DNA of 49,013 bases, taken from positions 1 through 49,013 of the forward strand of contig JAOZHU010000043.1 in assembly GCA_026014705.1 (NCBI GenBank), read 5' to 3'. Source of the stretch: Candidatus Bathyarchaeota archaeon (GTDB lineage Archaea > Thermoproteota > Bathyarchaeia > Bathyarchaeales > Bathycorpusculaceae). How positions within the stretch are numbered: the stretch's first letter is position 1; every line of letters starts with the position of its first letter. This document shows positions 22,866-25,104 of this stretch, in pieces. The notes beneath the pieces are model-generated. The model ran no database searches. It saw only the letters and a program-made list of their open reading frames with translations, and was not told the DNA's origin. Position numbers and translations under genes: made by a program.

Positions 22866-23459
22866 TCAGGTTTTGCCTATTTTCTGCAATACGCGCTCAA
22901 CAGGAAAAACCTGCAATTTCCTTGCGCTGCCACCTACAGAGATTAACTTAGAATCCACGAAACCGCGTCTTTCACGGCTCAACATTTCACGCTTCAGCGC
23001 TAAGCCTCCGCCGTAACCACCCAAAGTGAAACCAGCGCCAACAACCCTGTGACAGGGAACAATAGGCGCAAAAGGATTCGCAGCCATAACGTTTCCAACA
23101 GCCCTTGGGCTACCGCCGACGGTTTCAGCAACAGCACCATAAGACGCTACATACCCAATGGGAATCGAAGCTGTCGCTTCAAGCACCCTCCGTGTATAAA
23201 CAGACAAATGCTCCATGGCAAGCTGGAAACTATACGAAATGTCCTTTCCGTCGAAAATATTCTTCACCGTCAAAAGAACACTCTCGGCAAATTTTGAGGG
23301 CTCCGGGAAAATTTGAAAAGGAACATTGAATGGGACGCCAGCTAAGAGACACTTTAGCGCTTCTTCTTGGCTGTCGGCAAAGGATGTGCCGAAGACCCGC
23401 GGCTCGTCGCAGGCAACTCCAGCCCATACGGCACCAAACTTTTTGGCGTAGAGACCCAT
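22866..23459 (-). CDS. ogt: methylated-DNA-protein cysteine S-methyltransferase
   Basis: A 197-residue DNA-repair methyltransferase. The C-terminal domain carries the active-site motif PCHRVV (C about residue 139), GGSPRAVGNVMAANPF, the helix-turn-helix recognition region and the Tyr/Arg-finger IPIGYVASYGAVAE. It removes O6-alkyl groups from guanine by irreversible transfer to the cysteine. ATG at 23459 is used; a TTG at 23462 directly precedes it. It is the second gene of a probable pair with the small zinc-ribbon gene at 23540-23692. Confidence 0.93.
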   Translation of the reverse strand: MGLYAKKFGAVWAGVACDEPRVFGTSFADSQEEALKCLLAGVPFNVPFQIFPEPSKFAESVLLTVKNIFDGKDISYSFQLAMEHLSVYTRRVLEATASIPIGYVASYGAVAETVGGSPRAVGNVMAANPFAPIVPCHRVVGAGFTLGGYGGGLALKREMLSRERRGFVDSKLISVGGSARKLQVFPVERVLQKIGKT

Positions 23460-23539
23460 CAATCTTAACAGTTCCTTACGTTATTGAGAGGTTAATGGCT
23501 GTAAAAGCTTTACTGGTTCACCTGCGTTCATGGTGCAGG

Positions 23540-23772: not shown

Positions 23773-24402
23773 ATGGAAATCCCCCAATCGCAACCGCACC
23801 AAGGAGGATACGCGTGGGTGCCAGGCGCCACAACCATCGGCGTAGTCTACAAAGACGGCGTAATCTTGGCCTCTGAAAAACGCGTAGCTTACGGCTATCT
23901 AGTCATCAGCAAAGGCGGCAAAAAAGTATTCAAAATAACCGACCGCATAGGCGCAGCATGCGCAGGATTAGTAGGCGACATGCAAATCCTCACCCGAGAA
24001 ATCGAAGCGCAGGCAAACCTGTTTAGCATGGATGTCGGCAGACCCATCTCAGTGCGAGCCGCAGCCAAACTCATGGCGAACATCCTTTTCAACCGCCGAT
24101 ATGCGCCGTTGATTACGCAAACAATCGTCGCAGGCTTAGACGAGGAAGGCGCATCGCTTTACGTGCTGGATGTGTTAGGCTCGCTGATTCCTGACAAGTA
24201 CGCTGTTGTGGGATCAGGGACAGAAATAGCCGTCGGTGTTCTAGAAGAAGGCTACAAGGAAGAGATGACGCTTGAAGAAGCGAAAGAACTGGTAACCCGA
24301 GCAGTCAAATCAGCAGTAAGCAGAGACGTAATGAGTGGAGACGGCATAGATTTCCTCATAATAACCAAGGACGGCACAACAGAAGAGTCGACAAAGTTTT
24401 AA
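23773..24402 (+). CDS. psmB: 20S proteasome beta subunit with Ala in the Thr1 position
   Basis: A 209-residue proteasome beta subunit with a short propeptide of 18 residues. The mature part aligns without gaps to the active archaeal beta subunit TTTVGI..., so conserved E17 and K33 fall at ILASEKRV and SKGGKKVF. The residue aligned to the nucleophile Thr1 is Ala19 (GATTIGVV): the chain starts Ala-Thr-Thr rather than Thr-Thr-Thr. It would be catalytically silent unless Thr2 acts, as in the regulatory beta1 of Crenarchaeota. ATG 23773. An AMMECR1-family gene follows 81 bases downstream. Confidence 0.93.
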   Translation: MEIPQSQPHQGGYAWVPGATTIGVVYKDGVILASEKRVAYGYLVISKGGKKVFKITDRIGAACAGLVGDMQILTREIEAQANLFSMDVGRPISVRAAAKLMANILFNRRYAPLITQTIVAGLDEEGASLYVLDVLGSLIPDKYAVVGSGTEIAVGVLEEGYKEEMTLEEAKELVTRAVKSAVSRDVMSGDGIDFLIITKDGTTEESTKF

Positions 24403-24483: not shown

Positions 24484-25104
24484 TTGCCATTCACACTGAG
24501 TTTAGAGGAAGGAAAATTCCTAGTTGAACTCGCGCGAAACGCCGTGAAAGAACACCTGAAAACAGGAAAACACCTTGCGGCGCCAAAAAATACACCTAAG
24601 AAACTTTTTGAAAAATGCGGCGTCTTCGTCACCATAAACAAAACACGAAACAGCGAAAAACAACTCCGCGGCTGCATAGGCTACCCTTATCCCACATTGC
24701 CGCTTGTGGAGGCAGTTATAGAATCAGCCATAGACGCGGCAACCCAAGACCCACGTTTTTATCCGCTTCCGCTAAGCGAGTTAAGCGACGTAGTTTTCGA
24801 AGTAAGCGTGCTCACGCCACCAGAAGAAATAGAAACGCAAAAGCCAAGCGAGTACGTAGCTAAAATCAAGGTGGGCGAACACGGATTGATCGTTGAAAAA
24901 GGCGCTTTCAAAGGGCTGTTGCTGCCACAAGTGCCTGTGGAATGGGAATGGGATGAAGAAGAGTTCCTCTGCCAATGCTGCATCAAAGCGGGGCTTCCGC
25001 CAGACACCTGGCTGACAAAGGGCACTAAAATTTACAAGTTCCAAGCCATAATCTTCGAAGAGGAAACCCCAGAAGGCAAAATTAAGCAATTATCGCTCAA
25101 GTGA
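24484..25104 (+). CDS. AMMECR1 family protein
   Basis: A 206-residue protein of the AMMECR1 family. Conserved elements are the LRGCIGYPYP motif at residues 61-70, AAAATQDPRF-like ATQDPRFYPLP at 82-92, PLPLSEL, the EVSVLTPPEEI stretch and GLLLPQVPVEWEWDEEEFL. Members are conserved in archaea and eukaryotes; the reaction is not known. Start is TTG at 24484, with GGAGG about 10 bases upstream. In the same direction as psmB and probably in one unit with it, 81 bases away. Confidence 0.92.
   Translation: MPFTLSLEEGKFLVELARNAVKEHLKTGKHLAAPKNTPKKLFEKCGVFVTINKTRNSEKQLRGCIGYPYPTLPLVEAVIESAIDAATQDPRFYPLPLSELSDVVFEVSVLTPPEEIETQKPSEYVAKIKVGEHGLIVEKGAFKGLLLPQVPVEWEWDEEEFLCQCCIKAGLPPDTWLTKGTKIYKFQAIIFEEETPEGKIKQLSLK

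Follow-up and report, generated by a model that had tools for sequence, protein, structure and literature searches.

The gene considered here raises a simple question, namely whether a proteasome beta subunit that carries Ala in the place of the catalytic Thr1 acts as the inactive partner of an active beta subunit, or whether the adjacent Thr2 takes over as nucleophile. It lies in a stretch of 49,013 nucleotides (hereafter the window), which is one contig of a 1.99-Mb, 44-contig genome of a Candidatus Bathyarchaeota archaeon, and its features are collected in Table 1. The encoded protein is a member of the proteasome family (PF00227, 186.8 bits vs. a cut-off of 22.4), scored 232.9 bits with the NCBIfam model TIGR03634 (cut-off 224), and had 6z46 as its best Foldseek match (E 1e-20).

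Table 1. Features of the proteasome beta gene in the window, with the evidence on which each assignment is based.
Feature	Position	Strand	Basis
Thr1-less (very probably non-catalytic) proteasome beta gene	23773..24402	+	ORF, ATG start, 209 aa + stop; PF00227, TIGR03634, Foldseek best match 6z46
N-terminal extension ahead of position 1, 18 codons	23773..23826	+	Low-confidence part of model
Codon 19, GCC, giving Ala in place of catalytic Thr1	23827..23829	+	Sequence alignment and predicted structure
Glu17 codon (residue 35), kept	23875..23877	+	Alignment
Lys33 codon (residue 51), kept	23923..23925	+	Lys in 176/176 rows
Ser129-equivalent codon (residue 148), kept	24214..24216	+	Alignment
Asp166- and Ser169-equivalent codons (residues 185, 188), kept	24325..24336	+	Alignment

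The ORF translates as MEIPQSQPHQGGYAWVPG-A-T-T-IGVVYKDG..., the region around the expected nucleophile reading ..YAWVPG-A1-T2-T3-I4-G5-VVYKDGVILAS-E17-KR... Against the active beta subunit of the same genome (L001, ..KGTTTIGVTCKDG.., which reads ..LTLKG-T1-T2-T3-IGVTCKDG..) the alignment is ungapped here, with Gly(-1), T2, T3, I4 and G5 common to the two proteins and Ala opposite Thr1. The AlphaFold prediction had a mean pLDDT of 83.8, with residues 1-15 below 50; its alignment to solved beta chains placed model residue 19 opposite residue 1 of the chain in the majority of the 50 listed rows, among them 1ryp_I, 3unb_H and 4r3o_I. A shifted register was considered and ruled out, as the Gly(-1) and T2-T3-I4-G5 motifs are aligned and the structural match starts with residue 19 of the model on residue 1 of the chain. 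The preliminary description had placed Ala where Thr1 is expected and had considered E17 and K33 to be correctly positioned. Both statements hold: the alignment with L001, the 285-row alignment presented below and the predicted structure confirm that the Ala occupies the catalytic Thr1 position, and E17 and K33 are residues 35 and 51.

The conservation of this substitution was followed in an alignment of 285 rows, consisting of the 284 different sequences among the 324 fetched plus the window gene, which is so present twice; for both counts and trees, rows were assigned to a type by their best BLAST match (window protein vs. L001) and not by residue 1. Position 1 was Thr in 109/109 rows of the L001 type and in none of the 176 window-type rows, which displayed Ala (171), Gly (3), Ser (1) or a gap (1). 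Elsewhere in the window-type rows, position 47 was Gly in 176/176, the Asp166 equivalent was Asp in 175/176 and the Ser169 equivalent Ser in 171/176, while position 17 was occupied by Glu (155) or Asp (21) and the Ser129 equivalent was Ser in 119 rows and Thr in 56. The active-site frame of the window-type betas is intact and the nucleophile alone is absent. K33, E17, D166 and S169 are far better conserved in this Thr1-less archaeal type than in eukaryotic inert subunits, and the kept catalytic frame may reflect some chemical role, or structure simply. Glu17 was evaluated as a sign of decay and discarded, since Glu is present at this position in active archaeal betas too (T. acidophilum 1pma and 10/109 Thr1 rows). 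The sole Ser1 among the 176 rows belongs to L196 (genome G159), a beta of the Thr1-less type with the sequence ELP-S-T-A-I-G; this protein might be active, because Ser1 can serve as a weaker nucleophile in yeast (PMC4792962).

The Thr1-less type is widely distributed. The search gave a match in 299/299 genomes of the window's phylum, and Ala1 was accompanied by E17 and K33 in 80/80 named loci. Among 53 representative Thermoproteota genomes, chosen as one or two per listed family, the Thr1-less type was found in 51, i.e., in 50 together with the Thr1 type (G036 among them) and in G189, which had no Thr1 match; the remaining exceptions were G037, with no Thr1-less match, and G276, with no intact beta, and all three are fragmented assemblies. 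Two of the 80 named loci come from Borrarchaeum, assigned by NCBI to Promethearchaeati, i.e., the Asgard archaea, and a Thr1-less beta was present in 30/30 Asgard genomes read at position 1, these being the best-matching 30 of the 79 searched. These counts indicate that the sampled Thermoproteota usually encode a dedicated inert beta, that Asgard archaea have one too, and that such a subunit is not an oddity of Sulfolobus. The Borrarchaeum genome G330 has six proteasome genes, apparently three beta and three alpha (including L273, L276, L277, L279 and L280), and in another genome a Thr1-type beta (L263, G133:C1:1111321-1111884, minus strand) lies within a 1238-aa open frame.

In an alpha-rooted tree all 51 sampled Thr1-less rows fell in a single clade (SH-aLRT 99). 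After removal of all columns before position 4, and of L261 and L226 for their long branches, the remaining 50 Thr1-less rows again constituted a single clade (100/100). The clade covers the sampled Thermoproteota and Asgard archaea; in the sampling as a whole, the Euryarchaeota were represented by two PDB sequences only. The simplest reading of these sequences would be a single ancient loss of Thr1, predating the split of the sampled Thermoproteota and Asgard lineages, and the inactivation would be ancient because the sampled members of both belong to one clade; an early gene transfer between the two lineages, instead of a loss before their split, is a possible alternative.

A genome-wide profile search revealed three proteasome genes, i.e., the window beta, the alpha gene L003 and another beta gene, L001 (G000:C23), whose product has a normal GTTTIG start, with the window beta separate from the other two (contigs C1, C38 and C23). 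The preliminary description had proposed to look for a second psmB with TTTVGI elsewhere in the genome, and the GTTTIG psmB, along with one alpha, is what this search recovered; loss of the active partner was hence ruled out, L001 and L003 being both encoded. The name "endopeptidase subunit" given by TIGR03634 overstates the function of the window protein, since a catalytic beta has Thr at position 1 as its nucleophile and the window protein has Ala, and in this way inert subunits get called endopeptidases by automatic annotation. An Asgard member (L296) scored 213.1 bits with the same model, under the cut-off of 224. As to the surroundings of the gene, the one directly downstream (24484-25104, plus strand), whose product we take to be AMMECR1-like, lies next to the Thr1-less beta and on its strand in 67/80 named loci, and the divergent gene upstream (22866-23462, minus strand), presumably coding for a methylated-DNA-cysteine methyltransferase-like protein by its PCHRV motif, has a relative in 53/80.

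The best solved match of the window protein by sequence is the Saci0662 chain of 6z46 (8.8e-55), which is also the best structural match, and the gene L192, whose product equals this chain in 184/186 letters, is in the same Thr1-less clade as the window gene. According to the S. acidocaldarius study of Anjum and co-workers (PMC4569737), alpha and truncated Saci0662 yield a 28-subunit particle that is inactive, Saci0909 alone does not hold alpha, and alpha, Saci0662 and Saci0909 together yield an active particle, with Saci0909 as the minor beta. This pair is a published crenarchaeal instance of the arrangement claimed earlier, a second, inactive beta subunit assembling with an active one. The authors identified a T1-equivalent threonine in both Sulfolobus betas; the alignment made here instead puts the threonine of Saci0662 (P-A-T-A-I-G) at position 2 and Ala at position 1, which would explain why Saci0662 is inert. 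The window protein fits an inert beta of the Saci0662 type, having no Thr1, belonging to the Saci0662 clade and being encoded in a genome that also has genes for an alpha and a Thr1 beta. The further suggestion that the window gene plays the inactive-partner role finds support, by analogy, in the presence of L001 and the alpha gene and in the clade and best match shared with Saci0662.

By the same analogy, the window protein very probably serves the 20S proteasome as a structural beta subunit that has no catalytic function and makes up most of each beta ring, the cutting sites being supplied by L001. It would fold and pack like an ordinary beta subunit, but, as Ala1 offers no nucleophile, it would be unable to cleave substrates or to free itself of its N-terminal extension; in yeast betas with Thr1 replaced by Ala, both propeptide removal and activity were abolished, as reported by Huber and co-workers (PMC4792962). 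As regards the assembly, stoichiometry and trimming of the window protein, we infer that it would most likely dock on the alpha ring and prevail in each beta ring, where L001 would be inserted at some positions and provide the cutting sites, and that its extension would be retained, or trimmed in trans by an active neighbour. Such an arrangement would keep active sites few in each ring.

Other explanations were weighed against this structural role. Had the chain been trimmed between Ala1 and Thr2, Thr2 could serve as the N-terminal nucleophile, as the preliminary description had proposed in alternative to an inactive subunit. Conservation of Thr2 in 163/176 rows of the Thr1-less type may seem to favor this idea, but Thr2 is just as conserved in the active type (109/109 rows), position 2 is Cys, Ala or Val in 13/176 Thr1-less rows, and in the predicted structure residue 19 (Ala), rather than 20, superposes on Thr1. 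Moreover, the truncated Saci0662 chain of 6z46 has the threonine of TAIG as residue 2, behind one leading residue, and its particle with alpha was inactive (PMC4569737), so that a takeover by Thr2 appears highly unlikely. A private mutation, a pseudogene or a sequencing error at the Thr1 codon is hardly credible, although one base separates GCC from ACC: Ala1 recurs in 80/80 named relatives, the 285-row alignment is equally contrary to it, and the differences from orthologues fall mainly on third codon positions (0.13/0.09/0.47 for positions 1/2/3 against L093), a pattern as in a working gene under purifying selection.

The window protein could also be a regulated or specialised subunit, part of an alternative ring or conditionally swapped in, and not the main structural part of every ring. 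Its gene is apart from those of the alpha and of the Thr1 beta, and its expression could then be separate. Nonetheless, the presence of the Thr1-less type in 51/53 Thermoproteota representatives and the behavior of the Sulfolobus subunits, where alpha is bound by the inert beta but not by the Thr1 beta on its own (PMC4569737), make such a function unlikely.

A Thr1-less archaeal beta of this age invites a comparison with the non-catalytic betas of eukaryotes, among which beta3 and beta6 lack Thr1 and have Gly at the aligned position. Three trees, all computed after removal of six long rows, grouped beta3 and beta6 with the archaeal Thr1-less clade. Support was 86/84 in the tree including beta4 and beta7, whose end branches exceeded 3.6 and gave no placement, and which were hence omitted from the two later trees; it was 95/94 in the first of these and 91/88 in the second, based on another row draw. 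The alternative, a single clade uniting every eukaryotic beta tested, was not rejected by the AU test in either case (p-AU 0.293 and 0.166, respectively), and in the tree with the second row draw the three catalytic yeast betas were not one group. Eukaryotic beta3 and beta6 are highly diverged, and the yeast rows are long. Comparison of the Thr1-less with the Thr1 profile gave 102.7 vs. 90.0 for yeast beta3 and 120.4 vs. 114.3 for beta6, with beta7 about equal (70.6 vs. 69.3) and beta4 against the link (90.9 vs. 106.4); for the three catalytic yeast betas the Thr1 profile was ahead by 20-25 bits, partly through the catalytic residues themselves. Anjum and co-workers reported that the inert Sulfolobus subunit resembles yeast beta7 by BLAST (PMC4569737).

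Tentatively, and with somewhat less than an even chance of being right, the division between cutting and non-cutting betas could predate the eukaryotes: the Thr1-less beta would have arisen once, before the split of Thermoproteota and Asgard archaea, with beta3 and beta6 (perhaps beta4 and beta7) descending from it, and beta1, beta2 and beta5 from the Thr1 subunit. If true, this link would explain the source of some non-catalytic subunits of the eukaryotic proteasome, and ideas on how mixed beta rings arose could be tested in archaea.

An inert archaeal beta is already known from Sulfolobus, and the window gene adds a member from the Bathyarchaeia to a kind that appears old and widespread; a search of the PMC literature, partial in its coverage, found the Sulfolobus result and no inert beta described in Bathyarchaeia or Asgard archaea. 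Like the window protein, Saci0662 (L192) has Ala at position 1 and a Thr1 beta partner in its genome, although about half of the residues differ between the two proteins and the N-terminal extension is shorter in the Saci0662-type gene (L192) than in the window gene. The archaeal Thr1 betas, represented by T. acidophilum 1pma, A. fulgidus 1j2q and L001, have the same fold and the same active-site frame, with Thr1 where the window protein carries Ala1.
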